A stretch of 63,741 bases of DNA, taken from contig NZ_DAHXOI010000014.1 in assembly GCF_027364955.1 (NCBI RefSeq), positions 1 to 63,741 of the forward strand, given 5' to 3'. This DNA is from Ferrimicrobium sp. Its GTDB lineage: Bacteria; Actinomycetota; Acidimicrobiia; Acidimicrobiales; Acidimicrobiaceae. Below the pieces are notes generated by a model. It had not been told where the DNA came from and ran no database searches. It saw only the letters and a program-made list of their open reading frames with translations. Positions within the stretch are counted from its first letter, which is position 1. Every line of letters starts with the position of its first letter. Shown one piece after another: positions 42,601 to 61,363 of this stretch. The position numbers and the translations under genes were made by a program.

Positions 42601-42758
42601 AGGAGTCGGTCGAATGTGGGGCGGTATCTACCGCCATGGCAGTAGTCGGTCAAGTCACCCGATGGGCGGCTTGACCGACGATAATGATGAGTGACGGAGT
42701 ATGGTGCCGATGGTGGCGCTTCGGTTGACTCGTTGATGGTCACGAGTTGAGGAGTCGT

Positions 42759-43637: not shown

Positions 43638-44617
43638 CTGGGCACCAGGCGGGAGATTCGATCGATGGTTTTGTGCTGAAGGAGCCACTTGGTGAAGGTG
43701 CGTATGCGACTGTTTGGCTCGCCATCGATCAACGGGGGGACCGGGAAGTGGTGGTGAAGTTCCCGAATCCTGAGCTCTTGGCCGACCCTCAGCTTTATGC
43801 GCGATTCACCCGGGAGCGTACCCTGGCCCTCTCGCTTGAGCATCCAAATGTTCAGCGGGCGTTGCCGGTGCCCCAGCATCCGAGTGAACCGTATCTGTTG
43901 CATGAGTACCGAGCGGGTCAAACCCTTCGCGAGTGGATGGCCCAACGAGAACGGGTACCGCTCGAGGAGGCGATTGACATTGGTCGCCAGATCGCGCTCG
44001 GCCTCGCCTATCTGCATGCACATGGGGTGGTGCATCGCGATCTCAAACCAGAGAATCTGATTATCTCCGCCGATCACTCCGTTGCGATCAGCGACTTTGG
44101 CAGCGCGGTGAGCCTTGGGGCGCGCCGGCTTACCTGGAGACACTTTTCGATGGCCCAGGGCACCCCTGATTACATGAGTCCTGAACAGATACGGGGCCAG
44201 CGTGGTGATGCCCGTAGTGATCTCTACAGCTGGGGGATCATCCTCTATGAACTGCTTACCGGCGTGGTCCCCTTTGAGGGCGACAGCTGGTTGGTGGTGA
44301 TGGCCGGGCATCTTCAGGGAGATCCATTGCCGCTTCGAGAACGTGATCCAGGGATCCCTCCCGAGGTCGAAGGAGTAGTGATGCATAGCTTTCGCCGCTA
44401 CCCAGAACACCGGTATCAGCGCGTCGACGAGCTCCTTCGTGATCTGAACGAACCCGCAACGATCGACTCAGCGGTCTTTGATTTCTCAGTGGAGGCTCCC
44501 ATGGGAGAGGTACAACCGACGACCACACGAAGTTATCTCCGTCGGGCTGGGCTGGTTGCTGTAGGGTTTGTGAGCGCCATCATTGCGGTGGTCGTGATCG
44601 CGCTGGTGGTCAGGTAG
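43634..44617 (+). CDS. Serine/threonine protein kinase with C-terminal membrane anchor
   Basis: 327 residues. The glycine-rich loop is LGEGAYATVW, the catalytic Lys is in VVVKFPN, the catalytic loop is HRDLKPENLI and the DFG is SDFGSAV. The activation-segment end is GTPDYMSPEQI. A single C-terminal helix (about 303-324) anchors it with the kinase domain inside the cell and no external sensor domain. The TTG start overlaps the phosphatase stop (TTGA), so the opposing enzymes are made together. Confidence 0.92.
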   Translation: MTGHQAGDSIDGFVLKEPLGEGAYATVWLAIDQRGDREVVVKFPNPELLADPQLYARFTRERTLALSLEHPNVQRALPVPQHPSEPYLLHEYRAGQTLREWMAQRERVPLEEAIDIGRQIALGLAYLHAHGVVHRDLKPENLIISADHSVAISDFGSAVSLGARRLTWRHFSMAQGTPDYMSPEQIRGQRGDARSDLYSWGIILYELLTGVVPFEGDSWLVVMAGHLQGDPLPLRERDPGIPPEVEGVVMHSFRRYPEHRYQRVDELLRDLNEPATIDSAVFDFSVEAPMGEVQPTTTRSYLRRAGLVAVGFVSAIIAVVVIALVVR

Positions 44618-44636
44618 AAGAGAGAGGGGATCGTCG

Positions 44637-45878
44637 TTGAGTCAGAACCTAGGAGTCGGTGGTGATTTCGCCTGGGTGAAGTTGGTCTTCACTGATCTCA
44701 GTGGAACGGCCCGTGCAGTGCAGATCCCTGGTGCAACCTTCGATCGAGCGATCAGTGAGGGAGTGCGAGTCGATGGTTCGGCGCTCGAGGGACGCAACCG
44801 ACTCATCGAGACCGATCTGGTGCTCAAACCAGACCCAACGACCTTGTTGCCGAGCGGGCAGGGTTCGGGTCGCGTCATCTGTGACCTCTTTGACGACGAG
44901 GGTAACCCGTGGCCACTTGATCCCCGCCATGCCCTCCGTCAGATGGTGGTCACGACTTCCATCGCCTCAGGTAACTGGGAGGGCGCAGCGGAACTCGAGT
45001 GGTACCTCCTACGCCCAGACTTTACACCGGTCGATGGTGAAGGCTATTTTTCGTATGCGCGTGGAGAAGGGGAACGACTGCTTGCCAAGACGGCGGAACA
45101 GCTCCTCTCGCTCAATGTTCCCCTCAGCGCTGCCCACCATGAGGCAGGACCAGGTCAGTATGAGGTGAATCTCACCGGCGCGACCCCGCTCGCACTCGCG
45201 GATACCTTAATGAGTGCGCGAACCATCATCGCCGATCTGGCGTACGCCGAGGGCCTCATTGCAACTTTTATGGCACGACCACTGAACGAGTTGCCGGGGT
45301 CTGGTATGCATATTCACCAGGTGCTACCCGGCGGAGATCCCTCCGATGCGTTGCGGGTTGAGCAGATTATCGGCGGAGTCCTGAATCACGCGAGTGCACT
45401 CTGTGCCTTTGGTGCTCCAACCATCAATTCGTACCGGCGTCTGCACCGGGGCGCTGAGGCGCCAAGTCACGCGACGTGGGCCCAGGCGAGCCGGTCGGCC
45501 TTGGTGCGGCTGAGCCGTAAGAGCGAAGGGTTCGTCTCGATTGAGTACCGTGGCTCGGACGCATCGGCGAATCCCTATCTGGTAATCGCCGCGCTGCTCG
45601 CTGCCGCTGAGATCGGGGTCGCCGGGCAGGCGAAGCTGCCGGCCCCATTGGAGGAGAGCGTCGAAGGTGTTGGCCTCGCCCAGGTCGAGACAGCACCAAC
45701 GCAGTTACCACGCAGCTTAGAACAGGCGATTCGCGAACTCGCCGCCGATGATCAGCTGGTCGATTGTTTTGACGACCGTCTGATCAACCGCTATAGCGAG
45801 GATCTGATGGCCGAGGTGGAGGCGTCGCAGGGATACGTCAGTGACTGGGAGCAACAACGCTATCTCGGTAGCCGCTAG
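44637..45878 (+). CDS. Glutamine-synthetase-family ligase
   Basis: 413 residues, shorter than classical GlnA. GPGQYEVNLTG, GSGMHIHQVLPGG, NSYRRLHRG and SIEYRGSDASANPYL are catalytic-core motifs, including the ATP and glutamate sites. The N-terminus (WVKLVFTDLSGTARAVQIPG) is typical. The neighbours (APC permease, PP2C, kinase) suggest a gamma-glutamyl-amine or polyamine ligase rather than housekeeping glutamine synthetase. The Tyr adenylylation site was not seen. TTG 44637 has GAGAGGGG upstream. Confidence 0.82.
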   Translation: MSQNLGVGGDFAWVKLVFTDLSGTARAVQIPGATFDRAISEGVRVDGSALEGRNRLIETDLVLKPDPTTLLPSGQGSGRVICDLFDDEGNPWPLDPRHALRQMVVTTSIASGNWEGAAELEWYLLRPDFTPVDGEGYFSYARGEGERLLAKTAEQLLSLNVPLSAAHHEAGPGQYEVNLTGATPLALADTLMSARTIIADLAYAEGLIATFMARPLNELPGSGMHIHQVLPGGDPSDALRVEQIIGGVLNHASALCAFGAPTINSYRRLHRGAEAPSHATWAQASRSALVRLSRKSEGFVSIEYRGSDASANPYLVIAALLAAAEIGVAGQAKLPAPLEESVEGVGLAQVETAPTQLPRSLEQAIRELAADDQLVDCFDDRLINRYSEDLMAEVEASQGYVSDWEQQRYLGSR

Positions 45879-47366: not shown

Positions 47367-47474
47367 GAGATTAGGTGTAGACGTGCGTGAATGCGCATGT
47401 TCTCATCAGTATGGCGTGGTCTGATCCTAGGGGAGATCGGATACGTAGTACGAGGTGTGCCAAGAGGGGGGCGT

Positions 47475-47711
47475 ATGGTTGAGAATCCGGCTGAGATTTT
47501 GGATTGCACAGGACTGCAGTGCCCGTTGCCCGTGATAAAAACGTCACAGGCCATTAAAAAGCTGCAACCAGGCGAGGTGCTTGAGCTTCTCGCGACTGAT
47601 CCTGGGGTGGAGCCGGACATGAATGCGTGGACATCCAGGACAGGTAATGAGCTGTTGGGGATCACCAAAGAAGGCGATGTATTTCATGTCCTACTGAAAC
47701 GTGGCGGCTAA
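47475..47711 (+). CDS. tusA: TusA-family sulfur carrier
   Basis: 78 residues, full length. The persulfide-carrying cysteine is in DCTGLQCPLPVIKT, the CPxP signature of TusA. The last residues GDVFHVLLKRGG complete the ferredoxin-like fold. In sulfur oxidisers TusA takes sulfane sulfur from rhodaneses or DsrE and delivers it to the sHdr complex, which is encoded directly downstream. ATG 47475 follows AGAGGGGG. Confidence 0.93.
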   Translation: MVENPAEILDCTGLQCPLPVIKTSQAIKKLQPGEVLELLATDPGVEPDMNAWTSRTGNELLGITKEGDVFHVLLKRGG

Positions 47712-47787
47712 ACCTTAGTCCTTTTCAAATTCGGTTATCGGTAGCTTTGAGTGTTTGTGTCGCACGATCAATGAGGGGGGAGTAAAG

Positions 47788-48171
47788 ATGTGGACCGGTG
47801 AGTTCGAGGGGAAAGTGCTCTATGTGCAGACGCACGGTGAGGACGATCCTGGTCGTTGTGCTACCCCATTCTTCTTGGCAGCGTCCGCTGCTGCGATGGA
47901 GGTGGAGGTGGGGATCTACTTCACGATGTACGGTCCTCAGCTCCTCAAGAAGACGGTAGTTGACAAGATTGGTCCAAAAGGTGATCGAGGCCAACGCCTC
48001 TCCTACTTTGTGAAACAGGCAACGGATCTCGGCGTACGTCTTTGGGTCTGTCAGCCCTCACTCGATCTGAATGATCTCGTGATTGAGGATTTGATCGATG
48101 GGGTGGAGATGATCGGTGGTGCCGCGTTCAATGATCTTGCCATGAATGCGGATGCGGTGGTGTCGTTCTAA
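47788..48171 (+). CDS. DsrE-family sulfur carrier
   Basis: 127 residues. KVLYVQTHGEDDPGRCATPF opens the DsrE-like fold and VRLWVCQPSLDLND carries the candidate acceptor cysteine. It is placed between tusA and shdrC1 and overlaps the latter by 1 nt, so it is a part of the sulfur-delivery chain. GGGGGGAG precedes ATG 47788. Confidence 0.82.
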   Translation: MWTGEFEGKVLYVQTHGEDDPGRCATPFFLAASAAAMEVEVGIYFTMYGPQLLKKTVVDKIGPKGDRGQRLSYFVKQATDLGVRLWVCQPSLDLNDLVIEDLIDGVEMIGGAAFNDLAMNADAVVSF

Positions 48172-48890
48172 TGCCAGCGACGACCCTCGACCCCTACATG
48201 AAGAGAGATCATGTAGCCGGTCATATGGATGTCGAGCGCGAGGAGAAGGAGCGGCTCATCGGGCAGGTCATGGCCGATTCACGCTTTGGGGACTACCTCT
48301 ATGGTTGCTATGAGTGTGGAATCTGCGTGGCCGCCTGTCCTTCTGCGCGTTTCTACGACTTCTCACCACGCAGGATTGCCCAAGCGGCAGCCCGACGTGA
48401 TATTGACCTGATGTTCCAGCAGATGCAGGAGGACATCTGGGAATGTTCACAGTGTTTTTCTTGTCTGCGATGCCCTAGGGGCAATAACCCAGGGGGGGTC
48501 ATAACTATTATGCGTGAAGTTGCGGTCAAGGAAGGTCTCCATTCGGCGAAGGATGCTCTCGCTGGGTACTCCCGAATCATTTACAAGATCATGTCGACAG
48601 GAACCCAAGTCTCTCCCGACATGCTCCAACCTGATGCATTTCCCGACTGGGGCCCTGAAGTCAAAGATGTCTCAGAGAACCTCGATCTGTGGCGCAGGAT
48701 GCTCCCTCCTGAGACGATGCACACCACAACGACCGGCTGGAAGGTGGCTGATCGAACGTTGGTAGAGCTCTACGTCATCTGGCTAGAGACTGGGGCATTG
48801 GACATGATTGCACAGGTAGATCAAGGAATTCATATGATTCTTGAGGAAATTATGGAAGAGAAGTTAGAGGAGGAGGGGATAGAGATATGA
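48171..48890 (+). CDS. shdrC1: sHdr subunit C1 (iron-sulfur protein)
   Basis: 239 residues. Two [4Fe-4S] motifs lie near the N-terminus: CYECGICVAACPSARF (about 43-58) and CSQCFSCLRCPRGNNPGG (about 90-107), the second with the sHdrC1-type CxxCxxCxxCPRGNNP spacing. The helical C-terminus (LVELYVIWLETGALDMIAQV) is typical. It passes electrons within the sulfur-oxidising heterodisulfide-reductase-like complex. It overlaps shdrB1 by ATGA. Confidence 0.9.
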   Translation: MPATTLDPYMKRDHVAGHMDVEREEKERLIGQVMADSRFGDYLYGCYECGICVAACPSARFYDFSPRRIAQAAARRDIDLMFQQMQEDIWECSQCFSCLRCPRGNNPGGVITIMREVAVKEGLHSAKDALAGYSRIIYKIMSTGTQVSPDMLQPDAFPDWGPEVKDVSENLDLWRRMLPPETMHTTTTGWKVADRTLVELYVIWLETGALDMIAQVDQGIHMILEEIMEEKLEEEGIEI

Positions 48891-50077
48891 GTGATGGTGC
48901 GGTCTCAGTAATTCTTGGTAAGAAAGAGAAGTTTGAACGGGCTCCAGATCGGCGTTCTGAGGATTTTCATGAGCGGCTCTTCGAGTTGGAGGCGGAGGGA
49001 GAGCTTGTCGTACAGAGGATTACCGGCGATTTTGTAGAGGTGCCCACGAAGTATGGGGTCATCAAGAAAATTCAGAAGGCAAACCTCTGGCACCACAAGT
49101 CGTGTGGCCAATGCGGTCACATTCCCGGCTACTCTACCTCGATCTTTTGGTTGATGCGTAAGCTCGGCTACGACTATATCGACCCGGAAGATCAAACCTC
49201 CTGTACCGCATGGAACTACTATGCGTCGGCGACGTCGAACCAGGCGGCGCAGGCAGCAGTAGCGGTGAGGAATTTTGCGGCGGCCTATGAGACGGGGAAC
49301 TTCCCGCTCATCCATTGTGGGACCTCGTACGGGCACTATAAGGAGGTTCGGGCGGAGCTGCTCCACGATGGGGCGCTCCGTCAGCAGGTGACCAAGGTGC
49401 TCCATCGGCTTGGCAAGCAGTTGGTGTTGCCAGAGGAGATCATTCATTATTCGGAGTGGCTCTATGCGGTGCGTGATGAGATCAGTGCTCGGGCGGTACG
49501 AGATGTCTCTGGCATCGCGGTAACGGTTCATCCGGCATGTCATTACTACAAACTTGTCGAAGGCGATGCGATCTTCGATCCAGATGTCTATCACGGTCAG
49601 CGAACCGCTGCGGTGAGTGGACTTGTTCTAGCGCTGGGTGCTGATCTACGGAGTTACTCCACCTTCTTCGATTGTTGTGGGTTTGGCTTTCGTCATATCC
49701 TCGTGCAGCGCGACTTCACCCGCTCCTTTGCAACGTTGAGGAAGATCGAAGTGATGAAGGAGGAGGCCGACCCTGATGTGGTCCTGACGCACGACACCGG
49801 TTGCGTGACGGCGCTGGACAAGAGCCAGTTTGCGGCACAGGCTCATGAGCGCAACGTCGGCGTCCCGGTGATGAGTGAGGCCCAATTCGCTGCGCTAGCG
49901 ATGGGTGCGCACCCGTTCAAAGTGGCGCAGTTGCATTGGCACTCGACCAACTATCGGCCATTGCTGGAGAAGATGGGCATTGACTGGGAGGCGGCTTGGG
50001 CTGAGTTTCAAGAGGATGCCAAGCGGCTAAAGAGTGGGGGACAAGAGTTTCTCACCTGGGCAGATGTTGACGCATAG
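48887..50077 (+). CDS. shdrB1: sHdr subunit B1 (catalytic CCG-type subunit)
   Basis: 396 residues. An N-terminal region with SCGQCGHIPGYST and DQTSCTAWNYYA is followed by CCG-type cysteines in HPACHYYKL and STFFDCCGFGFRH. HdrB proteins hold a non-cubane double iron-sulfur site that splits disulfides. In sHdr it is thought to oxidise sulfur bound to lipoate or thiols. The gene starts inside the shdrC1 stop and precedes shdrA by 17 nt. Confidence 0.9.
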   Translation: MSDGAVSVILGKKEKFERAPDRRSEDFHERLFELEAEGELVVQRITGDFVEVPTKYGVIKKIQKANLWHHKSCGQCGHIPGYSTSIFWLMRKLGYDYIDPEDQTSCTAWNYYASATSNQAAQAAVAVRNFAAAYETGNFPLIHCGTSYGHYKEVRAELLHDGALRQQVTKVLHRLGKQLVLPEEIIHYSEWLYAVRDEISARAVRDVSGIAVTVHPACHYYKLVEGDAIFDPDVYHGQRTAAVSGLVLALGADLRSYSTFFDCCGFGFRHILVQRDFTRSFATLRKIEVMKEEADPDVVLTHDTGCVTALDKSQFAAQAHERNVGVPVMSEAQFAALAMGAHPFKVAQLHWHSTNYRPLLEKMGIDWEAAWAEFQEDAKRLKSGGQEFLTWADVDA

Positions 50078-50094
50078 AGAGCGGGCAGGAGAAT

Positions 50095-51141
50095 ATGCAA
50101 GAACGATTGGTCGTCATAGGTGGTGGTCCAGCGGGGATCTCGGCAGCGATCGCCGCGGCCGAGCTGGGAGCACCAGTGACCGTCATAGAAAAAAATGCGT
50201 ATCTTGGTGGACGTCCGATTGAGGAGAACTATGCGTCACTGACGCCGTACCTTGAGAGCGCAGAGGAGGTGATGGGCAGGCTCATCGATCAACTGACCTC
50301 CTTCGAGAATGTCGAGATTCGCACGAGCTCCAAGGTGGTCGGGGCATCGCGAGATCATGCTCCCTTTGAGCTCGACGTCCTCACGGGTAGTGCGACCTCT
50401 AAGATTCAAGCTGGTTCCGTCGTCATCGCCACTGGGTTCACCCATTTTGATCCCGGCCGTGAGACACAGCTCTATGGCTACTACGAGTTCCCCGACGTCA
50501 TTGCACTCCAGGATCTTGAGGCGATGTTGAAGGAGGGTTCGGTGACGCGACCCTCCAATGGAGAGACTCCGCAACGGATCTGTTTTGTCCAGTGCGTAGG
50601 TTCGCGTGATCGACAGATTGGGAACGAGTACTGTTCAAAGGTCTGCTGCGGCGTCGCCTCAAAGGAGGCTACGGAGATCAAGTTGTTGATTCCCTCGGCT
50701 GAGGTCTTTATCTTCTACATCGACATGCGCATGTATGGGTATTGGGAAAACCAGATCTACTGGCCTGCCCAAGAAAAGCATCACGTTCAGTATGTGAAGG
50801 GAATCATCACTGAGGTGCTCCCCAAGGATGGCAAGCTACTTGTGAGAGGCGAGGATACCACGATGGGCCGCCCAATGGAGGTTCTGATGGATCTTGTCGT
50901 GCTCTCCGTCGGCATGGAGGCCTCCCCAGGAACGCGTCAGATGGCAGCACTCCTTGGCGTTAAGCAGAATAAGTACGGGTTCATTGAGGCGGCGCACTCT
51001 CCACTTGACACAGTGTCAACGTCGGTAGCTGGGATCTATGCGGTGGGGGCCGCCCTCGGGCCGAGTGATTTAGAAGATTGCGCCTCCAGTGGTGGTTTGG
51101 CGGCCGCGAAGGCGGTTCGAGACCTCCATGCCTTGGCCTAG
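50095..51141 (+). CDS. shdrA: sHdr subunit A (FAD protein)
   Basis: 348 residues, the short sHdrA form. FAD-binding is shown by VIGGGPAGISAAIAAAELG and the family GGRPIEENYASLTPYL. FVQCVGSRDR and YCSKVCCGVASKEA carry cysteines for an iron-sulfur site, and GIYAVGAALGPSDLEDC closes the FAD site. It lacks the N-terminal domains of methanogen HdrA. It transfers electrons between HdrB-type sites and the rest of the complex. Confidence 0.92.
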   Translation: MQERLVVIGGGPAGISAAIAAAELGAPVTVIEKNAYLGGRPIEENYASLTPYLESAEEVMGRLIDQLTSFENVEIRTSSKVVGASRDHAPFELDVLTGSATSKIQAGSVVIATGFTHFDPGRETQLYGYYEFPDVIALQDLEAMLKEGSVTRPSNGETPQRICFVQCVGSRDRQIGNEYCSKVCCGVASKEATEIKLLIPSAEVFIFYIDMRMYGYWENQIYWPAQEKHHVQYVKGIITEVLPKDGKLLVRGEDTTMGRPMEVLMDLVVLSVGMEASPGTRQMAALLGVKQNKYGFIEAAHSPLDTVSTSVAGIYAVGAALGPSDLEDCASSGGLAAAKAVRDLHALA

Positions 51142-51151
51142 GCGGTACTAG

Positions 51152-51898
51152 ATGATGACCCAGACCCAACTGGCCGATCTCGAGGCCGCACAGGAGTTTT
51201 CGACGGCGATTTCATACCAGGTAGCGAAGTCCACCCAAGTGGTATTGGTGGAGAAGTTGACCCAACGCAGGCAGACAGCGGTTGGCCTGATCGATCGGCT
51301 GGAAGAGGGTCGAGAGATCCTCTCGCAATTGTGCGGATTGATCTTTGGCGTGCGCCGTCATCGTAGGGAACTCCTTGCCCAAGCGGACCTTGAGGTGCTC
51401 ATCGAGGGAGTGATACTCGCCAAGAACGGGGAAGACCCGCTCGTGGTCTTTGACACGATTGTTGGGTGTGGTTACGAGGACCAGGGACTTCTGCGAGATT
51501 TGGCCTCTGAAGTGCTCCATATCGTCGACCCGTGGGCGCATCCGCTGTGGCGTCGGTGGGTCCTCGATCCGGATCAGGAGACGGGTGCGCTTGCGCTTCT
51601 AGTCGAGGATCCAATTGCGTTATACGGGATCGATGATGCCACGACGTACGCGCAGGTACGATTCGCCTTCGATTATCTCAGCCAAACCCTGAGTGCGGCC
51701 TCCCTCCTGCCGGTATCGGCCGAACAGAGTCCTTACGGTCTTGATGTCTTCCTTGCCGGCGTCTATGGGGTGTATTCATCCACGGTGATCAAGATGCGTA
51801 TGACCAAGGAGTTCAACAGCCTCCTTCCTGATCTGGGGGAGTTTATGGGACGTATTCTCGGGGTGAAGGGAGAGGTTGATGCCAATAGGGGGCAATAA
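51152..51898 (+). CDS. shdrH: sHdr-cluster conserved protein H
   Basis: 248 residues, entirely helical in appearance and without iron-sulfur cysteines. It matches the position and size of the conserved hypothetical protein between shdrA and shdrB3 in type II clusters. Its role is unknown; a structural subunit is the usual suggestion. The 3' end overlaps shdrB3 by 20 nt. Confidence 0.75.
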   Translation: MMTQTQLADLEAAQEFSTAISYQVAKSTQVVLVEKLTQRRQTAVGLIDRLEEGREILSQLCGLIFGVRRHRRELLAQADLEVLIEGVILAKNGEDPLVVFDTIVGCGYEDQGLLRDLASEVLHIVDPWAHPLWRRWVLDPDQETGALALLVEDPIALYGIDDATTYAQVRFAFDYLSQTLSAASLLPVSAEQSPYGLDVFLAGVYGVYSSTVIKMRMTKEFNSLLPDLGEFMGRILGVKGEVDANRGQ

Positions 51899-53186
51899 GC
51901 AACCTGCCGGAGTGTCCGAATTAGACGAAGCGATTGTCACGTCGTCACTCTCTGGAAGAGAGTGGGACGTTTCAGGTTCTTCGTCAAGGATGCTCCATTC
52001 GCGGGTACTGACCGACTACAGCGCGGCTGGCTTTGCAAAGATTGCTGCGCTCGAGGGTGGTAACTCTCTCGAATACTGCTTTGGCTGTGGTAAGTGTGTT
52101 CCGGTTTGTCCGGTCGACCTGGTATCGGAGTATGGTCCCCGCAAGATTCACCGGGCCGTCCAAACGGGCTTTGATCTTTTCAAATCTGATGAGCTTTGGA
52201 AGTGTACCACCTGCGGCAACTGCCTTCGTGTCTGCCCCAAAGAGGTCAACATGATCGAGGTCATGCCGGCCGTACGTGAGGTCGCGATGGTCGAGGGGAC
52301 CATCCCAGACGAACTCCAACAGGTGATGGAGAAGACGTTCCGTTATGGAAATGCGCTAGGTGAAAATCCGCGTCGACGACACGCCTGGACCAAGGGTGCT
52401 GGAGTCGAGGTACGCGTGTTGGCGAATGACCCAAGTCCCGTTGACGTGTTGTTCTATGTGGAGGACTACTGGAGCTATCATCCCAGGGGCCAACAGGCCG
52501 CGCAAGCCTTTGCACGCATCATGAGCAGCCTGAATGTCGACTTTGCGATCTTAGGCGCTGAGGAGAAGACGTTGGGTGACTCGCAGCGACTGGCTGGCGA
52601 GAAGGGTCTCTTTGAGTCCTTGATGGAGGAGGTGGTCGATGTGCTAGCGAAGTATCAGTTCAATCGCATCGTCACCCCAGATCCACATGGGTTCAATGCG
52701 TTGAAGAAGATCTATCCAAAGTATGGACACACCTTCGAGGCCTTTCACTACTCGCAGCTGTTGGCTCCCCTGCTTGACCAGATTGACTTTGCGGGAAGTC
52801 TTGATGCCACCGTTACCTTCCATGATCCGTGTTATCTAGGACGGCACAATGGGGAGTATGAGGCCCCGCGCAAGATCATCGAGGCGATACCAGGCGTCAA
52901 ACTACTCGAGATGGGAAGGTGCCGGGAGAACTCGTACTGCTGTGGCGGAGGAGGAGGTGGCATGTGGCTCGATGGGTTCAATTCCAATCAGCTCTCGGAG
53001 CGACTCTCCGAACGACGAGTGAGGGAGGCGGCGGCGACCGGTGCCGACATTCTTGCGGTCGCATGTCCCTATGAGGTATCGAGATTCGAGGATGCGGCAA
53101 AGTCGACGGGAAATGAGGGACTACGGGTGATGGATATCGCCGAGATGGTGGATATCGCGATGCGAGGAGAGGATTGGAGGAGTTGA
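51879..53186 (+). CDS. shdrB3: sHdr B3-type fused iron-sulfur and CCG protein
   Basis: About 435 residues. Two [4Fe-4S] motifs (CFGCGKCVPVCP and CTTCGNCLRVCP, about 65-120) are followed by a CCG-type C-terminal half. There, FHDPCYLGRHNGEYE and CRENSYCCGGGGGGMW are the signatures. It is a fusion of HdrC and HdrB functions, the hallmark of type II sHdr clusters (type I has separate C2 and B2). It probably links the sHdr core to the EtfBA/EMO branch. It ends 1 nt before etfB. Confidence 0.9.
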   Translation: MPIGGNKQPAGVSELDEAIVTSSLSGREWDVSGSSSRMLHSRVLTDYSAAGFAKIAALEGGNSLEYCFGCGKCVPVCPVDLVSEYGPRKIHRAVQTGFDLFKSDELWKCTTCGNCLRVCPKEVNMIEVMPAVREVAMVEGTIPDELQQVMEKTFRYGNALGENPRRRHAWTKGAGVEVRVLANDPSPVDVLFYVEDYWSYHPRGQQAAQAFARIMSSLNVDFAILGAEEKTLGDSQRLAGEKGLFESLMEEVVDVLAKYQFNRIVTPDPHGFNALKKIYPKYGHTFEAFHYSQLLAPLLDQIDFAGSLDATVTFHDPCYLGRHNGEYEAPRKIIEAIPGVKLLEMGRCRENSYCCGGGGGGMWLDGFNSNQLSERLSERRVREAAATGADILAVACPYEVSRFEDAAKSTGNEGLRVMDIAEMVDIAMRGEDWRS

Positions 53187-53187
53187 T

Positions 53188-53958
53188 ATGCGAATCGTTG
53201 TTGCTATGCGGCAGTTGGCGGACCTTGTCGAGGAGCTAGAGGTCAGTGATGACGGAACCGATATCGATCGTGAGTTCGTCAAGTTCATCTCCAATGAGTG
53301 GGATGAGGCTGCCCTGGAGGAGGCGCTGACGTTGAAGGATGAGTTGGGGGCGACGGTGACCGTCGTTGCCCTCGATGAACCAGACGTTGACCAAACGCTA
53401 TATGCGGCGTTGGCCAAGGGGGCTGATCGAGTGGTTAAGTTAACCGGGCATGACCCAGATACCTGGGTACGCTCGCGCGAACGTGCTCAACGTCTTGCCT
53501 CCTTCCTCACTGGCGAGTCGTTTGATCTCGTACTCACCGGGGTGCAGGCTGCCGATGACTTAGATGGTCAACTTGCAGGTATCCTTGGGTCATTGCTGGA
53601 GCTTCCTCACGCAGCGGTGGTGGTCGGTGTCGAGGGGTCTGACTCCAAGGTCAGGGTGACCCAGGAGCTAGGAGGCGGACTCCTGGGGGTGAGCGAACTC
53701 GATCTACCAGCGGTGCTTGGCATCCAGGCGGCGAAGCAGGCGCCAAGGTATGCGCCCATCTCAAGGATTCGCCAGGCGATGCAGACGGGCGAGATCGGTG
53801 AGCACGAGGTCGAACTCAGTGATTCGGCAGTCCAGGTCAAGGTTCGTCGGCTCTATCCGCCTGAGTCGACTGGAGCTGGCGCGACCATGCTCAAGGGTTC
53901 CCCGAAGGAAGTGGCGGCAGAGATTATTGAGATCATCAAGTCCAAGGGTCTTGTGTAG
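53188..53958 (+). CDS. etfB: Electron-transfer flavoprotein subunit beta
   Basis: 256 residues. It begins MRIVVAMRQLADL and has the EtfB fold with FDLVLTGVQAADDLDGQLAG and a late GAGATMLKGSPKEVAAEI. The AMP site region is present. In type II sHdr clusters EtfBA probably takes electrons from the sHdr complex to EMO. It is next to etfA with a 25-nt gap. Confidence 0.92.
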   Translation: MRIVVAMRQLADLVEELEVSDDGTDIDREFVKFISNEWDEAALEEALTLKDELGATVTVVALDEPDVDQTLYAALAKGADRVVKLTGHDPDTWVRSRERAQRLASFLTGESFDLVLTGVQAADDLDGQLAGILGSLLELPHAAVVVGVEGSDSKVRVTQELGGGLLGVSELDLPAVLGIQAAKQAPRYAPISRIRQAMQTGEIGEHEVELSDSAVQVKVRRLYPPESTGAGATMLKGSPKEVAAEIIEIIKSKGLV

Positions 53959-53983
53959 CCCGGAGGCATGAAAGGAAGTTCCG

Positions 53984-54943
53984 ATGTCGGTTGATGTGTT
54001 GGTGATAGCTGAGGCGGTGGCGGGGGAAGTCCTGGATGTCACCTATGAGCTGTTAGGAAAGGGTCGGGAACTCAGCGATGGTTTCTCGGGTGAGCTTGGA
54101 GCCGTGCTGATCGGTGAACCATCTCCCCAGGATCTTTTCGGAGCGGCTGATGTGCTCTATTCAATGAGCGGCATGGAGGCCGGTTACTGTGCGCCTCAGT
54201 GGGAGATGGCGCTTGGGGAGGTCCTCCGCAGCGCCGATCCGAAGGTGGTTTTGGTCAGCACCGGTACGGTGGGGATCGACTTGGCCGGCGCCCTAGCGAC
54301 GCAATTTGGTGGTGTACTCGCCTCGTATGTCATCGATGCGGTGATGGAGGAGGGGTCGCTGGTGGTGACCTCGCAGCTCTACGGCGGCAAGTTGTTGTCA
54401 GAGGTGGAGATCGACAGCTTTCCAGCTGTGCTCTCGGTCCTCCCCGGGTCATTTGTCTCCGATGCTGGGCGAGTGGCAGGTGAGCCAAGGCGCGAAGTCA
54501 TTGATGTCGGTGGGTCAGTATCGAGCGCGAAAGGTGTTGCGATTGAGCTTCGCGAGCCCGACAGCAGTGGTGTGGACATCACCGCTGCGCCGCTCCTCGT
54601 GTCGGTCGGTCGGGGTATTGGATCGAAGGAGAATGTCGAACTGGTGGCAGAGTTGGCTGAAGCGATGAAGGCACCACTCTCCGCCTCGAGGCCGGTGATT
54701 GACCAGGGTTGGTTGCCAAAGCCGCATCAGGTCGGTAAGTCAGGCAAGAAGGTCAAGCCGACGGTCTATCTCGCCTTCGGCATCTCAGGGGCGCCCGAAC
54801 ACCTTGAGGGGATGCGTAGTGCCGATGTGATCATCGCCTGCAACACCGACGCAAAAGCACCGATCTTTGAGGTTGCCCACTACGGCACTACGTTGGATCT
54901 CTTCGACCTCGTTCCGGAATTGACTGATCAAGTCGGAGGCTGA
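53984..54943 (+). CDS. etfA: Electron-transfer flavoprotein subunit alpha
   Basis: 319 residues. The C-terminal FAD-binding region is intact: GRGIGSKENVELV, SRPVIDQGWLP, VGKSGKKVKPTVYLAFGISG and CNTDAKAPIFEVAHYGT. It forms the FAD-binding half of the heterodimer with EtfB. There is no acyl-CoA dehydrogenase gene nearby, so a fatty-acid role is unlikely. Confidence 0.93.
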   Translation: MSVDVLVIAEAVAGEVLDVTYELLGKGRELSDGFSGELGAVLIGEPSPQDLFGAADVLYSMSGMEAGYCAPQWEMALGEVLRSADPKVVLVSTGTVGIDLAGALATQFGGVLASYVIDAVMEEGSLVVTSQLYGGKLLSEVEIDSFPAVLSVLPGSFVSDAGRVAGEPRREVIDVGGSVSSAKGVAIELREPDSSGVDITAAPLLVSVGRGIGSKENVELVAELAEAMKAPLSASRPVIDQGWLPKPHQVGKSGKKVKPTVYLAFGISGAPEHLEGMRSADVIIACNTDAKAPIFEVAHYGTTLDLFDLVPELTDQVGG

Positions 54944-54945
54944 GG

Positions 54946-57111
54946 GTGCTTGTTGGGGTCATAGAGACGAGGAAGATCTTCGGGGGGGAGACCGAGACGG
55001 CGAAGATGGTGTTCTATCTTCTTGCCGTTATCGTCCTAGCGATCTTCTTTACCGGCTTCTTTAAGCGAGTCATCGAGTATAACCACGGAAGACGCTCAGC
55101 CGCATTCTCCTGGTTGCGAAAACGTGATGCCAGCGACATCCCGGAGGTGTCAGAGCGCCCGAAGTTTGCGAGTTCCTTGGTGACGATCGCGGCCAACAAG
55201 ACGGTCACCAAGTCCAAAAAAAAGGTTGGAGTGAGCCATCTCCTGCTCTTTTGGGGATTCATTGGGCTCTTTCTCGCGACCTCGATTCTTAGCCTCGACT
55301 ATGACATCCTTGGCAATGCTTCACGCTTCATCACCGGACATACCTACAGCTTCTTTCAGGGTCCGTTCTATCTAGGCTACAATGCGGTCTTTGACCTGGC
55401 TGGGCTGGCGGCGCTGGTGGGAACCATTCTGCTGGCCTATCGGCGCTGGTTTTCGCGCGAGATTGCGCTCGACTACACGCGGGCACAACGTCCAGAGGGG
55501 GGGTACTCCAGGGCCAAGATCGTGCTTGGTGATCAGGTCTTTGTTGTGGGTCTCCTTCTGATCCTTATCACGGGGATCCTGATTCAGGGACTGCGCATTG
55601 ATGGCGAGGGGTTTCCGAGTTTCGAGCGCTGGACGTGGCTCGGTTATCTCGTTGGTAAGGGGCTGGTCTCGCTCGGTGTCGGCTCGGCCGGTGCTCGAGC
55701 GATTCATGCCTGGCTGTGGTGGGTTCATGTCGGCATGGCTCTTGCATTTGTTGCCTATATTCCGTGGTCAAAGGCGTGGCATATGTTGGCATCCCCGACC
55801 AATCTCGCCGTCAGGGATCTCGCAACGACGAGGCGGATTCCCACTCCACCAGAGGGTAAGACTGGCTATGACTCTATCGATGACTTTACCCCGCGAGAGC
55901 TATTGGGCTTTGATTCGTGCACCAAGTGCGGACGCTGTCACGCTGTCTGTCCTGCGCGAACGGCTGGTGCCCCACTCTCACCCCGTGACTTTATTCTGGA
56001 CCTGCGCCAGTGGGTAGACCGCAGTCGGCACGTCCCTCTTCTCCTCGATACCGAAACTCGCCCCGTGGCGTCGGGACCGCTGCTGACTGATGGAGCACTC
56101 GCAGGTGATGTGATCGTGGACAAAACACTCTGGTCATGTACCACGTGTATGGCTTGTGTCGAGATCTGCCCAGTTGGTATCGAACACGTGCCAACCATCG
56201 TACAACTCAGACGCTCATTGGTTGATCGAGGAGAGATGGAGCCCACCCTCCAGTCGGCGTTGCAAAATATTGCAACGCAGGGTAACTCCTTTGGTAAGAG
56301 TGCCCGCATGCGCGCGCGCTGGACCAAGGGATTGGACTTTCCTATTGTCGATGCACGTAAGGAGCATGTGGAGTATCTGTGGTTCTTGGGCGATTTTGCC
56401 TCCTTTGATGAGCGCCTGATGAGTATCTCGCAGACGCTCGCCAAAGTGCTCAACGCCAGTGGGGTCTCGTTTGGGATTCTCTTCGATGATGAGCGTAACG
56501 CCGGCAACGATGTACGTCGGGTAGGCGAGGAAGGTCTCTTTGAGATGCTCGTTGAACAGAATATGGCGGCCTTCTCCAAGGCTTCGTTTGATAAGATCTT
56601 TACGACGGATCCTCATACGTTCAACACACTTCGCAATGAGTATCCGTCCTTTGGGCTCGACAAACCGGTACTGCACTACTCTGAGTTACTCGCCATCCTC
56701 ATGTTCACCGAGGAGGTTGCTCCGCGCAGCTTAGGACGCAGGGTGACCTATCACGATCCCTGTTATCTGGGTCGGTACAATCGGATTTTTGACACACCGA
56801 GGGCGGTGATCGCTGGACTGGGCTGTGAACTCGTTGAGATGCCACGACATGGAGCAAACTCCTTCTGTTGTGGAGCCGGCGGTGGAAGAATCTGGATGGA
56901 CGACTCCTATCTGGAGGAACGGCCGTCGGTGAACCGAATCAAGGAGGCGCAAGGCCTTGGGGTTGACTACTTCGTCGTAGCCTGCCCAAAGGATTACGCG
57001 ATGTTCTCTGATGCGGTCAAGACGGTAGGGATTGAGGACTCCCTGAAGGTGATCGACATCGTTGAACTCTTCGCCGAGGCAACCGAGGCGACCGAACTGG
57101 TCGACGTCTGA
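54946..57111 (+). CDS. emo: ETF:menaquinone oxidoreductase (EMO/EtfD-like)
   Basis: 721 residues. The N-terminal half (about 20-285) has five or so membrane helices of the nitrate-reductase gamma type that would hold b-hemes. Then come two [4Fe-4S] motifs (CTKCGRCHAVCP and CTTCMACVEICP). A CCG-type half with YHDPCYLGRYNRIFD and NSFCCGAGGGRIW follows. This architecture is that of EMO and mycobacterial EtfD, which accept electrons from EtfBA and reduce menaquinone. GTG 54946 follows GGAGG. It overlaps the zinc-finger gene by 1 nt. Confidence 0.9.
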   Translation: MLVGVIETRKIFGGETETAKMVFYLLAVIVLAIFFTGFFKRVIEYNHGRRSAAFSWLRKRDASDIPEVSERPKFASSLVTIAANKTVTKSKKKVGVSHLLLFWGFIGLFLATSILSLDYDILGNASRFITGHTYSFFQGPFYLGYNAVFDLAGLAALVGTILLAYRRWFSREIALDYTRAQRPEGGYSRAKIVLGDQVFVVGLLLILITGILIQGLRIDGEGFPSFERWTWLGYLVGKGLVSLGVGSAGARAIHAWLWWVHVGMALAFVAYIPWSKAWHMLASPTNLAVRDLATTRRIPTPPEGKTGYDSIDDFTPRELLGFDSCTKCGRCHAVCPARTAGAPLSPRDFILDLRQWVDRSRHVPLLLDTETRPVASGPLLTDGALAGDVIVDKTLWSCTTCMACVEICPVGIEHVPTIVQLRRSLVDRGEMEPTLQSALQNIATQGNSFGKSARMRARWTKGLDFPIVDARKEHVEYLWFLGDFASFDERLMSISQTLAKVLNASGVSFGILFDDERNAGNDVRRVGEEGLFEMLVEQNMAAFSKASFDKIFTTDPHTFNTLRNEYPSFGLDKPVLHYSELLAILMFTEEVAPRSLGRRVTYHDPCYLGRYNRIFDTPRAVIAGLGCELVEMPRHGANSFCCGAGGGRIWMDDSYLEERPSVNRIKEAQGLGVDYFVVACPKDYAMFSDAVKTVGIEDSLKVIDIVELFAEATEATELVDV

Positions 57112-57416
57112 TGGAGTGCCCGACCTGTGACGCCGCAAATCTCGGATACGAGAGTCTGCATCGGCATCTGATTGCGCGTCATCCAGATCTTATTGCCATC
57201 GTGGCAAAAGGAAGTCGGCCCTCGTACCGGGTCAACTGTCCACTCTGTGAGGAGGCCTATGTCCAAGCGATCAAGCGTGGGCATCCCGAGGATGGTTTTA
57301 TTGAGGAGTACGAAGCAGATATCAGGTTGGTGGGGATGGATATCCTCGTGCAACATCTGATTGGCGAACATCCCAGTGAAGTTGGTTATCATCGAGAAGA
57401 GGAGAGAGATGAGTAA
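57111..57416 (+). CDS. Double zinc-finger-like protein in the sHdr operon
   Basis: 101 residues. The N-terminus has CPTC followed 12 residues later by HLIARH, a C-x2-C-x12-H-x4-H arrangement as in C2H2 fingers. The second half has CPLC and, after a longer insert, QHLIGEH (H-x4-H). It lies between emo and lbpA with 1-nt and 8-nt overlaps, so it is co-translated. No known sHdr component of this kind comes to mind; it may be an assembly factor, a small nucleic-acid binder or a lipoate/sulfur chaperone. Zinc binding is inferred from the spacing. Confidence 0.7.
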   Translation: MECPTCDAANLGYESLHRHLIARHPDLIAIVAKGSRPSYRVNCPLCEEAYVQAIKRGHPEDGFIEEYEADIRLVGMDILVQHLIGEHPSEVGYHREEERDE

Positions 57417-57849
57417 AGAAAACGGATGCGAGCTTCCAGAGGATCTGTACTATCTGATCGAGAAGCATGTCTGGGCACGCCCCGATGGTGATGAGGTGGT
57501 GATTGGACTCACCGATGTGGCGCAGAATCTTGCGAAGACGATTATCTCAGTCTCACTGAAGGCTGCGGGTAAACCAGTGAAGAAGGGTCGCAGTCTCGCC
57601 ACTGTCGAGAGTGGAAAGTGGGTTGGCCCCGTGCCCTGTCCAGTGGAGGGTGAGGTGCTCGCGGTCAATGAACGCTTGGTAGGGACTCCTGGACTCTTGA
57701 ACTCGGATCCTTATGGCGAGGGTTGGGTAGCGAGAGTAGCGCCGAGCAATTGGGAGAGCGACCTCGCTGAACTTGCGACGGGCATGGAGGGGGTACAACA
57801 ATATAAGGCGTTCCTCGATGACCAAGGAATTGTGTGTAGCGACGGCTAG
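57409..57849 (+). CDS. lbpA: Lipoate-binding protein LbpA (first copy)
   Basis: 146 residues, GcvH-like. The lipoylated lysine is expected in VESGKWVGPVPCPVEGEV (GcvH usual ESVK). It has single cysteines near both termini (ENGCELP and GIVCSDG) and one next to the lysine motif. LbpA carries lipoate as the sulfur-bearing arm for sHdr, distinct from glycine cleavage; no other gcv gene is near. ATG 57409 follows GAAGAGGAGAG and overlaps the zinc-finger stop. Confidence 0.92.
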   Translation: MSKENGCELPEDLYYLIEKHVWARPDGDEVVIGLTDVAQNLAKTIISVSLKAAGKPVKKGRSLATVESGKWVGPVPCPVEGEVLAVNERLVGTPGLLNSDPYGEGWVARVAPSNWESDLAELATGMEGVQQYKAFLDDQGIVCSDG

Positions 57850-57851
57850 CG

Positions 57852-58298
57852 ATGGAGACGTGGGCCGGGTGCGCTTTCCCTACTGATCGATACTATGACC
57901 TCGATGCTGATGTCTGGGTGAAGGTCGAGGGAGGACTAGCGCGCGTGGGGATGACTGACGTTGCCCAGACTCGAATGGGTAGGTTGGTGCAGTTGAGTTG
58001 GAAGCCGGTGGGACGGAACGTGGCGCGTGGGCGCCCACTGACGGTATTGGAAAGTGCAAAGTGGGTGGGCCCCTTGATCTCACCGTTGACCGGAGTGATC
58101 CGGGAGAACAATCGGATCGCCTTTGACGCCGATGTCGCAGTTGCTAACAGAGACCCCTATGAGGTTGGCTGGCTGTACCTTATCGAGTACTCCAATGATC
58201 AGGAGTTGGAAGGGTTGGCGGATGGCCCGAAGGCGTTCGATCACTATCGCGAGGTGATCGAACGGGAAGGAATTCAGTGCTTTCGATGTGCTGAGTAG
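57852..58298 (+). CDS. lbpA: Lipoate-binding protein LbpA (second copy)
   Basis: 148 residues, about a third identical to the preceding copy by eye. The lysine motif is VLESAKWVGPLISPLTGVI. Termini again carry cysteines (WAGCAFP and GIQCFRCAE). Two adjacent LbpA genes suggest paralogs with separate partners, for example sHdrB1 and sHdrB3. It starts 2 nt after the first copy. Confidence 0.92.
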   Translation: METWAGCAFPTDRYYDLDADVWVKVEGGLARVGMTDVAQTRMGRLVQLSWKPVGRNVARGRPLTVLESAKWVGPLISPLTGVIRENNRIAFDADVAVANRDPYEVGWLYLIEYSNDQELEGLADGPKAFDHYREVIEREGIQCFRCAE

Positions 58299-58319
58299 AA
58301 AGGAAGAGGGGGGATAACT

Positions 58320-58808
58320 GTGTCAAATGATGAGTCCAAGAAGATGGCGATGATCTGCTGGAGCAATGACCTGGATCGGGTGTGGCCGGTGTTAATACTG
58401 GCGACGACGGCTGCGGCCTCGGGACTCGAGGTGGATGTGTTTTTCACCTTCTGGGGCCTGCGGGTGCTCCAGAAGAACAGCATCAGAGTGACGGGCAGCA
58501 ACTGGATGCAAAAGGCGGAGTCGCTCGTGGATGCGGGCGGGACCGATCGGCTGCGGTTGGGCAAGATCAACTTTGCTGGTGTCGGTACCAAGATGATCAA
58601 GACTCTCGCAACCGACCACAAGGTCGCTTCGCCAACGGAGCTACTTGAGATGGCACTCGATCTTGAGGTTCGATTGCACCCATGCCAGATGACCATGGAT
58701 CTTTACGGGCTGAGCAAGGATGATTTCATCGACGGAATTCAACCCCCGATCGGTGCGGCAAGTTTTATTAACATGGCGGCTGAGGCTGATATCAGTATGT
58801 TCATATGA
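58320..58808 (+). CDS. DsrE3A-like sulfur carrier
   Basis: 162 residues of the DsrE/DsrF/DrsH-like family (larger than DsrE). KMAMICWSNDLDRVWPVLIL opens the fold and VRLHPCQMTMDLYGL carries the conserved acceptor cysteine. VDVFFTFWGLRVLQKNS is typical of DsrE3A, which moves thiosulfate or persulfide sulfur to TusA and sHdr. The GTG start follows GAAGAGGGG. Confidence 0.85.
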   Translation: MSNDESKKMAMICWSNDLDRVWPVLILATTAAASGLEVDVFFTFWGLRVLQKNSIRVTGSNWMQKAESLVDAGGTDRLRLGKINFAGVGTKMIKTLATDHKVASPTELLEMALDLEVRLHPCQMTMDLYGLSKDDFIDGIQPPIGAASFINMAAEADISMFI

Positions 58809-58827
58809 GGCAGAAATTGACCCCGTC

Positions 58828-59475
58828 GTGTTGATCTATGCGGATGCTAGCGATGCTGTCGCTCGAGCGAGTGTCGAGCGTGCTGCGCGACAGAGCAATA
58901 TCGAGCTAACATCAGACCCTGGCATTGCAGAGGTTCTCCTTCTTCCATTGTCGGAGGAGGCCGATCTGGTGAGCATCACCGAGGTACGTTCACAGAACCC
59001 GCGTGCAACCCTTATCGCACATACCATGGTCCAGAAGCAGGATCTTTGGGCAGCTGCCGAACGAGCTGGAGCAGACAGAATCGAGAACTCTGGTGGACTG
59101 GGAGTCTTACTCCGGCGGCTGGTGAAGGAGTTTGAGTCGGGTTCTCAACGTCCGCGGATGGTCCCGTTATGCTCGGTCGGAGATGTAGCGGGTCGTCTGG
59201 GAATCCTCGCCTGCGTCCAACACGAGCTCGGTGAGTTGATTCTGATCAAGGACCAGGGCAAGCCGGTCTGTTTGGTGGGACCGTGTCCTCACGCTGCCGG
59301 CTCCTTGGCGAGTGCGTTGATCGAGGATGGGGTCATGACCTGCCCGGAACACGGGAGCCAGTTTTCCATCGACACAGGGGAGCGAACGAGAGGGCCAGCC
59401 GATGAGGGGCTCCAGCAGTTGCGCGTAGTGGAGGAGGATGGGAAGTACTGGGTCGTCGCAGCACCTGGCGTCTAG
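58828..59475 (+). CDS. Rieske protein with receiver-like N-terminal domain
   Basis: About 215 residues from GTG 58828 (start uncertain). The first 100 residues read as an alpha/beta domain like a response-regulator receiver (VLIYADASDAVARASVERAA), but no clear phosphorylated Asp is seen. The C-terminal 90 residues are a Rieske [2Fe-2S] domain with CPHAAGSLA and CPEHGSQF. Such soluble Rieske domains usually act as ferredoxins. Closing the sHdr operon, it may deliver electrons or sense redox state. The fusion is not a known sHdr component. Confidence 0.72.
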   Translation: MLIYADASDAVARASVERAARQSNIELTSDPGIAEVLLLPLSEEADLVSITEVRSQNPRATLIAHTMVQKQDLWAAAERAGADRIENSGGLGVLLRRLVKEFESGSQRPRMVPLCSVGDVAGRLGILACVQHELGELILIKDQGKPVCLVGPCPHAAGSLASALIEDGVMTCPEHGSQFSIDTGERTRGPADEGLQQLRVVEEDGKYWVVAAPGV

Positions 59476-60064: not shown

Positions 60065-61153
60065 TTAGCGCGTCAGCTCTGTCATGATTCTCTCGAGTGG
60101 TTGCTTGAGGTCATCCGATGAGATACCAGGTGCATCCTCAATGATTTCGTTATAGAGGTGGTTCCATCTGTCACCGAGGAGTAGGTCAAGCTGTTCCCCG
60201 ATGATCGCGGTTGCCAGTTTGAGGGGTGCATCAAGAGGATAGACCGTGAAGTCACCCTCCAGTGATGCATCGAGAATCTCTCGTCCGTCGAGGAACAGCA
60301 CCCATCTGATGAGACCTCCAGCAGCCTTATAGACAGCGTGGTGCATCGTGACATCGTTTTTGATGGTGAGCCCGGCGATTCGGCGACCTCCACCACCATT
60401 GGTCCAGTTCTCATCCGACATCGTCCGTTCGGTGGCGATGAGCTGGGTATGCTCATCCACCGTTAGGTACTCGGTCGGCAGGATCGGGCGCTCGAGGAGA
60501 TTCGATACCTTTGTCAGGTAGGTCTCAAGTACTCGTTCTGGTTCTGGGGGGAGTTCGAGCTCGCGGGTGATGCATGTGACGTACTCTTGGAGGTTTTGGT
60601 AGAGCTTGTCGCGCATCTTTTCGGTATCAACGTGCAGGACAGAGGCCATAGTGTTGAGATCGATGTCGAACATGAAGCTCGAGACCAGCACCTCAGCGTT
60701 GCCGATACGAGCAGCACCGCAGCCGCCAATCTTATGACCGTTGACTTGGATGTCGTTAATGGGACGCATCTGCGCTGGGATACCAAGCTCTTGGTACGTT
60801 GCAACAATTGGTTCAATGAAGAGTTGGTAGCGCGCCTCAATCGAGCGCGGGAGTGAGTTCGGTGAGAAAATCCATTGCACAAAGACTTGGTTCGCATCTA
60901 AGTAGACGGCTCCGCCTCCGACTTGGCGCCGAATCACTTCGAGCCCGAGGTCGGCAACTCTTGTGAGATCGAGTTCGTGTTGTGCATCCTGATGATAGCC
61001 AATACAGATGTAGGGTTTAGCTGGTTGGACGAGGCAGATCGTGTCGGGCGTATCTGGTGTATAGGCCTCCGCAATCGCATGGTAGATAGCTTGTGAGTGA
61101 AGTGGGGAGACTGAAAACGCGCGAATGATGCGAATTGGAGTAGTATCAATCAT
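60065..61153 (-). CDS. lplA: Lipoate-protein ligase A-like enzyme
   Basis: About 362 residues. The core has RRQVGGGAVYLDANQ, NDIQVNGHKIGGCGAARIG and VLVSSFMFDID, the lipoate/ATP and lysine-acceptor motifs of LplA. A long C-terminal domain follows (about 255-362), as in full-length LplA. With LbpA encoded nearby, it is the likely lipoylating enzyme of the sHdr system. ATG 61153 is chosen, with no clear ribosome site. Whether it can handle octanoate is unknown. Confidence 0.88.
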   Translation of the reverse strand: MIDTTPIRIIRAFSVSPLHSQAIYHAIAEAYTPDTPDTICLVQPAKPYICIGYHQDAQHELDLTRVADLGLEVIRRQVGGGAVYLDANQVFVQWIFSPNSLPRSIEARYQLFIEPIVATYQELGIPAQMRPINDIQVNGHKIGGCGAARIGNAEVLVSSFMFDIDLNTMASVLHVDTEKMRDKLYQNLQEYVTCITRELELPPEPERVLETYLTKVSNLLERPILPTEYLTVDEHTQLIATERTMSDENWTNGGGGRRIAGLTIKNDVTMHHAVYKAAGGLIRWVLFLDGREILDASLEGDFTVYPLDAPLKLATAIIGEQLDLLLGDRWNHLYNEIIEDAPGISSDDLKQPLERIMTELTR

Positions 61154-61363
61154 CGATAGAAGTCTAGTGACAAATTCGTCATCGAAGCCCGCGATATTGT
61201 GCCGCACAGTCTCGACTGTTTAGTATTCTGCTGGGTGCTCATTGTGATAACTACAGCCACGGTTCTAGGGCCGATGCACAGGGTTCCTCCAATTCAGCAG
61301 GATTGCTGGAATCGAGGGACCCCTATGGTATGCAAGAATACTTGTGGGTGGGTTATGGCCCTA

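Follow-up and report, generated by a model that had tools for sequence, protein, structure and literature searches.

The stretch of DNA analysed here (the window, 63,741 nt of contig NZ_DAHXOI010000014.1 in the Ferrimicrobium sp. assembly GCF_027364955.1) carries at positions 47475-59475 fifteen genes, all on the plus strand, which very probably form a co-directional type II sHdr-LbpA cluster of an Acidimicrobiaceae bacterium that oxidises sulfane sulfur and passes the electrons to EtfBA-EMO. The genes are as follows, together with a lipoate-ligase-like gene on the opposite strand.

47475..47711 (+): tusA, sulfur carrier (PF01206, 2.5e-22), with its start at an in-frame ATG within the open reading frame (ORF) 47391-47711
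47788..48171 (+): dsrE-family sulfurtransferase, first copy (PF02635/PF13686), in the same place in relatives
48171..48890 (+): shdrC1, HdrC-like with two 4Fe-4S motifs (PF13183)
48887..50077 (+): shdrB1, HdrB-like, the proposed catalytic CCG subunit (PF02754)
50095..51141 (+): shdrA, HdrA-like flavoprotein, best solved match 6tjr
51152..51898 (+): shdrH, named by position, with a homologue in 15 of 60 related genomes including the window's own
51879..53186 (+): shdrB3, fused C2-B2 type with 4Fe-4S and CCG domains and one CCG site, in which CPYE replaces CPxC
53188..53958 (+): etfB (PF01012)
53984..54943 (+): etfA (PF00766, PF01012)
54946..57111 (+): emo, membrane heme/Fe-S quinone oxidoreductase-like protein for electron-transfer flavoprotein (ETF), without the D1 ligands (match to EtfD 9ojn, 3e-74)
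57111..57416 (+): small protein with two C2H2-type zinc sites (zinc-site protein), from conservation and a structure model
57409..57849 (+): lbpA, first copy (PF01597), with lipoyl Lys70, Cys7 and Cys143
57852..58298 (+): lbpA, second copy (PF01597), with lipoyl Lys70, Cys7 and Cys143
58320..58808 (+): dsrE-family sulfurtransferase, second copy (PF13686, 6.4e-45)
58828..59475 (+): receiver-like fold fused to a Rieske [2Fe-2S] domain (PF00355; structure model and fold search)
60065..61207 (-): lipoate-protein-ligase-like gene, convergent with the cluster, candidate LbpA ligase (PF21948, 1.5e-37)

A first-pass annotation had proposed fifteen co-directional genes in this order, and the family scans match the names it gave them. 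Its description of the spacing as tight also holds, with 13 of the 14 junctions being an overlap or a gap of <30 nt and a gap of 76 nt between tusA and dsrE, as does the doubling of lbpA, the two products being GcvH-fold proteins in tandem. The second dsrE product, which had been called DsrE3A-like, belongs to the DsrE family, while the DsrE3A subtype is not settled, the nearest NCBIfam model being DsrE2 at 104.8 bits, far under its cut-off of 210. As listed from 58720, the Rieske ORF overlaps this dsrE over 89 nt, and a start at about 58828 is preferable. The C1, B1 and H subunits were assigned by position and domain, with 6tjr as the sole type I protein compared; the shdrH product matched no Pfam or NCBIfam family, and its name follows from its place between A and B3. 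Based on spacing and conservation, the fifteen genes probably constitute a single operon. Rfam and tRNA scans of the window returned no match.

As defined in PMC11582611, type II systems combine shdrC1B1AHB3 and etfAB in one cluster, and by domains and gene order the window cluster consists of this C1-B1-A-H-B3 core with etfBA, including the C2-B2 fusion in the form of a 435-aa sHdrB3 with two 4Fe-4S motifs and a CCG domain. The type II interpretation put forward in the first-pass annotation is therefore sustained, also in the comparison of gene order with known clusters; of the two marks it had named for this type, the B3 fusion stands and EMO does not, as the definition rests on B3 and etfAB. 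Chain 6tjr, which we take to be from Hyphomicrobium denitrificans, aligns with sHdrA over 336 residues at 248.6 bits, whereas the alignment with methanogen HdrA is partial and reaches 190.3 bits at best. With a length of 348 aa against 643-671 for HdrA, and 6tjr as the best match, a methanogen-type Hdr is ruled out.

This kind of system has already been described and the window cluster adds another member. A Sulfobacillus 'Hdr cluster II', in which etfAB is accompanied by a protein with six helices and two CCG domains, was described in 2014 (PMC4378227), a 'Group III' with etfBA and two or three lbpA was described in 2018 for Actinobacteria and Firmicutes (PMC6067878, where the cluster of A. 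ferrooxidans may already be listed), and the type I/II naming was in print in 2024, in a paper that also gives lack of SoxT as a trait of type II genomes (PMC11582611). The C1-B1-A-H-B3 core and etfAB are common to all of these and the window cluster, which has two lbpA, and the long six-helix protein beside etfAB in the Sulfobacillus cluster, as described, is the likely equivalent of EMO. Compared with the Bacillota loci, the window adds the zinc-site gene and the receiver-like/Rieske gene and its gene order differs, and unlike many Actinomycetota it has no lipoate-assembly block between B3 and etfB. The type I system of H. denitrificans, for which mutants and sulfite formation have been reported, shares sHdrC1, B1, A, H and LbpA with the window cluster but has separate C2 and B2 and no etfAB in its definition. 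The cluster of Thermomicrobium roseum, likened here by its description only (PMC6776052), has hdrABC, etfAB, tusA, dsrE and lbpA in common with the window, but belongs to another phylum and comprises 19 genes with three lbpA.

The same arrangement recurs in relatives, which indicates that the cluster is more than a chance grouping. Among the regions of 16 relatives (G and L numbers label the genomes and loci compared, with G000 the window's genome), eight (G399, G396, G398, G400, G405, G407, G417, and G080) have the full set of fifteen in unchanged order and no insertion between B3 and etfB, though the G396 contig stops inside the last gene of the cluster. G409 also has all fifteen genes, with a lipoate-assembly insert between B3 and etfB. 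The insert encodes a third LbpA-like protein, two proteins resembling lipoate ligases, and two of the radical-SAM type; these last two come nearest to LipS1 and LipS2 and score under the NCBIfam cut-offs, at 221 against 230 and 196.3 against 270 bits, respectively. G001, which shares no rank below the phylum, contains a comparable insert, and there the Rieske gene lies upstream on the other strand; the other six regions are truncated, either at a contig end or by the limits of the stretch fetched.

A B1 scan of genome contigs yielded 346 confirmed relatives, and the best 80 of the 346, which were used, belong to the Actinomycetota (50), Bacillota (14), Chloroflexota (13), Gemmatimonadota (1), and Rokuibacteriota (1), with one lacking a rank. 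Type II core genes also occur outside the Acidimicrobiia in Gordonia rhizosphera and Amycolatopsis acididurans (L129 and L097), and L088 has a second Hdr-like set upstream of its type II cluster (1600-7000), comprising one B3-like frame (516 bits) and two that are A-like. Phylogenetically, a tree of A, B1, and B3 (70 rows, the window and the 69 of the 80 loci in which all three proteins were long enough) places the window inside the Actinomycetota type II group, with L066 and then L067 and L068, in a starred ten-row set that includes Ferrithrix; this tree and the EMO tree below are quick trees with SH-aLRT support only and no methanogen rows. Ferrithrix DSM 19514 (L072) is placed in the family Acidimicrobiaceae by NCBI, and G407 and G080 are in the window's own family; with its nearest named relatives in the Acidimicrobiaceae, the genome is what had been supposed from the letters, a likely member of the Acidimicrobiia.

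The route by which electrons would leave the core can be read from the Fe-S ligands of EMO, a 721-aa protein with Fe-S and CCG domains by hidden Markov model. Ligands were mapped through a HMMER alignment to 9ojn, the EtfD of Mycobacterium smegmatis, using the ligand list of its cryo-electron microscopy paper (PMC13083937). His98 and His279 of EMO, invariant in 42 of 42 rows, align with His78 and His241, which bind the heme in EtfD, and the cubane-cluster cysteines and most D2 ligands of EtfD are likewise kept. EtfD possesses D1 ligands and Cys712, whereas the window EMO has Asp483, Asn518, Asp555, and Thr558 at the D1 ligands Cys503, 538, 581, and 584 and an aspartate in place of Cys712. The D1 ligands are replaced in all 38 EMO rows of this type, which include two genomes without a strong B3 (G073 and G208), the positions being occupied by Asp, by Asn (36 rows, with Thr and Ser once each), by Asp, and by Ser or Thr, while all four EtfD-like rows have Cys. 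At D2, His583 and Cys637, 672, 673, and 709 are kept (one of the 38 rows is gapped at the last three), and at the Cys712 position all 37 rows that have a residue there carry Asp (Asp683 in the window). FadF and DgcB, described in PMC13083937 as lacking the D1 cysteines and proposed to pass ETF electrons straight into D2, resemble the window EMO in this loss, by description only; from a pattern of D1 loss with heme ligands and D2 kept, the window EMO would depart by Asp683 at the Cys712 position.

The EMO tree (42 rows, with duplicates, low scores and rows of <560 matched residues dropped) places the window protein among the cluster-linked EMOs. The four EtfD-like copies form one starred group, beside which stands the EMO row L082, and among them is a separate two-CCG EtfD-like paralogue from the window's own genome (contig C23). 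The placement with fatty-acid ETF systems that would have contradicted the interpretation is not seen, and with this paralogue falling outside in the tree, a fatty-acid EMO is ruled out. In sHdrB3 (78 rows), four cysteines and a glutamate at the Cys712 position are present in 78 of 78 rows and the histidine in 77. An HdrB alignment puts Cys306 of B1 at the second bridging cysteine of HdrB (Cys234) and Ser147 at the first (Cys81), and eight B1 cysteines are invariant in 83 of 83 rows. B1 is named as the proposed catalytic subunit in PMC11582611; from these residues, its CCG site would be the sole one able to do sulfur chemistry, with the CCG sites of B3 and EMO acting as electron wires.

Both LbpA proteins have the traits given for this family in PMC6067878, a conserved lysine and one N-terminal and one C-terminal cysteine (Lys70, Cys7, and Cys143). 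The genome has three GcvH-family matches, the two LbpA and one elsewhere, and three lipoate-transferase-family matches, which comprise a LipB-LipA fusion, the ligase-like gene adjoining the cluster, and a further one. The fusion is a 589-aa frame at 1300-3066 of L207 that lies beside a lipoyl-domain acyltransferase-like frame. In the Chloroflexota loci L102 and L201, lbpA is followed by a gene with a high score for the same lipoate-ligase profile. Lipoylation may depend on the nearby LplA-like gene and the LipB-LipA fusion. The lipoate-ligase-like gene of the window adjoins a type III sulfide:quinone reductase-like gene (61364-62746, minus strand; below the NCBIfam cut-off).

The zinc-site protein is a conserved partner of type II sHdr outside the Bacillota. 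Across 396 genomes of the phylum it is present in four, and precisely these four have a strong sHdrB3 (at least 635 bits, against 267 for the next-best B3 match). In 40 genomes hand-picked from the 80 named type II genomes it occurs in 21, with 0 of 13 in the Bacillota and 21 of 27 in the others; the phyla with the protein are the Actinomycetota, Chloroflexota, and Gemmatimonadota. Where the EMO-LbpA junction was on hand, the gene sits there in 17 of 18 non-Bacillota loci and in none of five Bacillota loci. This co-occurrence with sHdrB3 and the conserved position rule out a chance neighbour. All eight zinc-binding positions (C3, C6, H19, H24, C43, C46, H82, and H87) are present in 17 of 18 rows, with L123 lacking C6, and Pfam zf-Di19 is matched at E <= 0.01 in 16 of the 18, the window's own protein falling below the cut-off. 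The structure model is fairly confident (predicted local distance difference test, pLDDT, 85), a fold search of the PDB with it gave no match at E <= 0.001, and the protein was found nowhere in the plasmid collection. The protein may help to assemble or couple the Etf/EMO-LbpA part.

The last gene of the cluster is a frequent, not a strict, companion of type II sHdr. Matches over most of its product are found in four of the 396 phylum genomes (G000, G080, G001, and G203) and in 13 of the 40 named type II genomes, with two from the Chloroflexota and none from the Bacillota. The C-x-H and C-P-x-H residues of the Rieske domain are invariant in 10 rows, and the model (pLDDT 77, predicted template modelling score 0.53) matches both Rieske ferredoxins and response-regulator receivers in the fold search (e.g., 2qxy, TM 0.72 by target). 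Receivers carry a phosphate-accepting aspartate, and in the alignment of the window protein this residue seems to be absent. The protein may work with the cluster as a carrier of electrons or as a redox sensor. A search of the open-licence PubMed Central literature found no zinc-finger or Rieske gene tied to sHdr, which is not to claim that they are unreported.

Further upstream in the window, a PP2C phosphatase, a Ser/Thr kinase and a glutamine-synthetase-like protein stand in a row just before the cluster (42747-45878). About 14 kb upstream, 30210-30956 encodes an ArsR-type regulator with a fused rhodanese domain, 31010-32221 a transposase, and 32259-33722 a metallo-beta-lactamase protein that also has rhodanese domains; it is possible that the set at 30210-33722 senses or handles persulfides.

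Taken together, TusA and the DsrE proteins would act as cytoplasmic carriers of sulfane sulfur and deliver it to LbpA, in lipoylated form, and to the sHdr core, where C1-B1-A-H-B3 would oxidise it to sulfite at a non-cubane Fe-S site in B1, the formation of sulfite by type II being predicted by analogy to type I. Electrons from the core would pass to EtfBA and on to the EMO in the membrane. As this EMO has no D1 ligands, they should go straight into D2 and from there would reach D3, D4, heme b, and menaquinone. Electron bifurcation is known from HdrA-type flavoproteins and some Etf families, and the electrons of sHdrA might accordingly reach a second acceptor through bifurcation or confurcation at the Etf or sHdrA flavin in place of menaquinone alone. 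This is improbable, since the fifteen genes include no hydrogenase or separate small 4Fe-4S ferredoxin gene and a membrane quinone-reductase-like gene directly follows etfA.

A number of observations weigh against the reading of the locus as a type II sHdr-LbpA cluster that oxidises sulfane sulfur with the named proteins as its working parts. Promoter- and terminator-like sites at the locus are no commoner than in shuffled sequence. Six of the 27 non-Bacillota type II genomes have no zinc-site match, with a profile built mostly from the window's family by which distant forms may be missed, and L085 is a cluster without the gene. The receiver-like/Rieske protein is present in G203, in which no strong B3 was found (this genome is 84% complete and the match lies near a contig end), and no match to it turned up in G025, a genome with both B3 and the zinc-site protein. 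Further, G073 has the same EMO subtype beside etfBA and an Old Yellow Enzyme (OYE)-like flavoenzyme, with no sHdr gene within the 19.9 kb fetched, and its EMO falls inside the cluster-linked group, as does that of G208, on a long branch. The G073 set (L214, 9713-16810) is possibly a dimethylglycine-type (DgcAB-like) module, and because of it neither EMO nor the CPKD motif of EMO can serve as a mark unique to sHdr. The same set would favour the idea that EtfBA-EMO serves fatty-acid or other dehydrogenase metabolism and merely neighbours sHdr, but this is extremely improbable for the window, given that etfBA-emo accompanies the sHdr core in loci from the Actinomycetota, Chloroflexota, Bacillota, and Gemmatimonadota and that the genome holds the EtfD-like paralogue on C23 that lies outside in the EMO tree.

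To these is added the lipoylation machinery, as LipS1 was not found in the window's genome with a same-family LipS1 as the query. This query matched 13 of 40 genomes of the family (a fragment in G419 and a weak partial match in G398), and of the 15 type II genomes of the family, ten have LipS1 in full, four have no match (G000, G396, G399, and G407), and G398 has the weak partial one. Together with the report that LbpA of sulfur oxidisers is not modified by the canonical machineries of E. coli and B. subtilis (PMC10332631), this could mean that LbpA is unlipoylated in this lineage and the cluster inactive or lipoate-independent. Such a state is very improbable, as the lipoyl lysine is kept in both LbpA, the genome has the LipB-LipA fusion and the ligase-like gene adjoining the cluster, and LipS1/S2, reported for 74.3% of sHdr bacteria, are missing from a quarter of them anyway.

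Gene content and tabulated physiology also disagree. Table 5 of PMC8790237 lists the type strains of Ferrithrix thermotolerans and Acidimicrobium ferrooxidans as negative for the oxidation of elemental sulfur (S0), while all fifteen genes are present in Ferrithrix DSM 19514 and in G080, putatively A. ferrooxidans. The cluster might therefore oxidise another substrate, for example turning cellular or external thiols into disulfides or acting on organosulfur compounds, with survival perhaps as its main purpose, a proposal also favoured by the description in PMC6776052 of the 19-gene cluster of T. roseum as up 45-fold on average in persistence, with thiol oxidation proposed. This is possible but on the unlikely side: Sulfobacillus species with such clusters (L127, L128, L141, and L144) are listed as S0 positive in the same table, the introduction of PMC11697166 credits Acidimicrobiaceae with the ability to oxidise or reduce compounds of iron and sulfur and the same paper's reference list includes a 2011 title on autotrophic, sulfur-oxidizing actinobacteria, S0 tests leave room for the use of thiosulfate, tetrathionate or sulfide, and TusA with two DsrE genes points to sulfane-sulfur traffic.

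Sulfane sulfur is the favoured candidate substrate of the cluster. What makes the cluster worth attention is that it comes with a conserved zinc-site partner and an EMO lacking the D1 ligands, and that gene content is at odds with the physiology tabulated for relatives that carry it. It poses concrete questions about the Fe-S clusters of EMO, the lipoylation of LbpA without LipS1 and the role of the zinc-site protein. As a tentative proposal, type II outside the Bacillota could be a distinct, larger machine with the zinc-site protein, and in many cases also the receiver-like/Rieske protein, as working parts, which in the iron oxidisers of the Acidimicrobiaceae might serve an oxidation of sulfur compounds or thiols that S0 tests miss. 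If S0-negative, iron-oxidising Acidimicrobiaceae do oxidise reduced sulfur compounds, this would bear on the chemistry of acid mine drainage.

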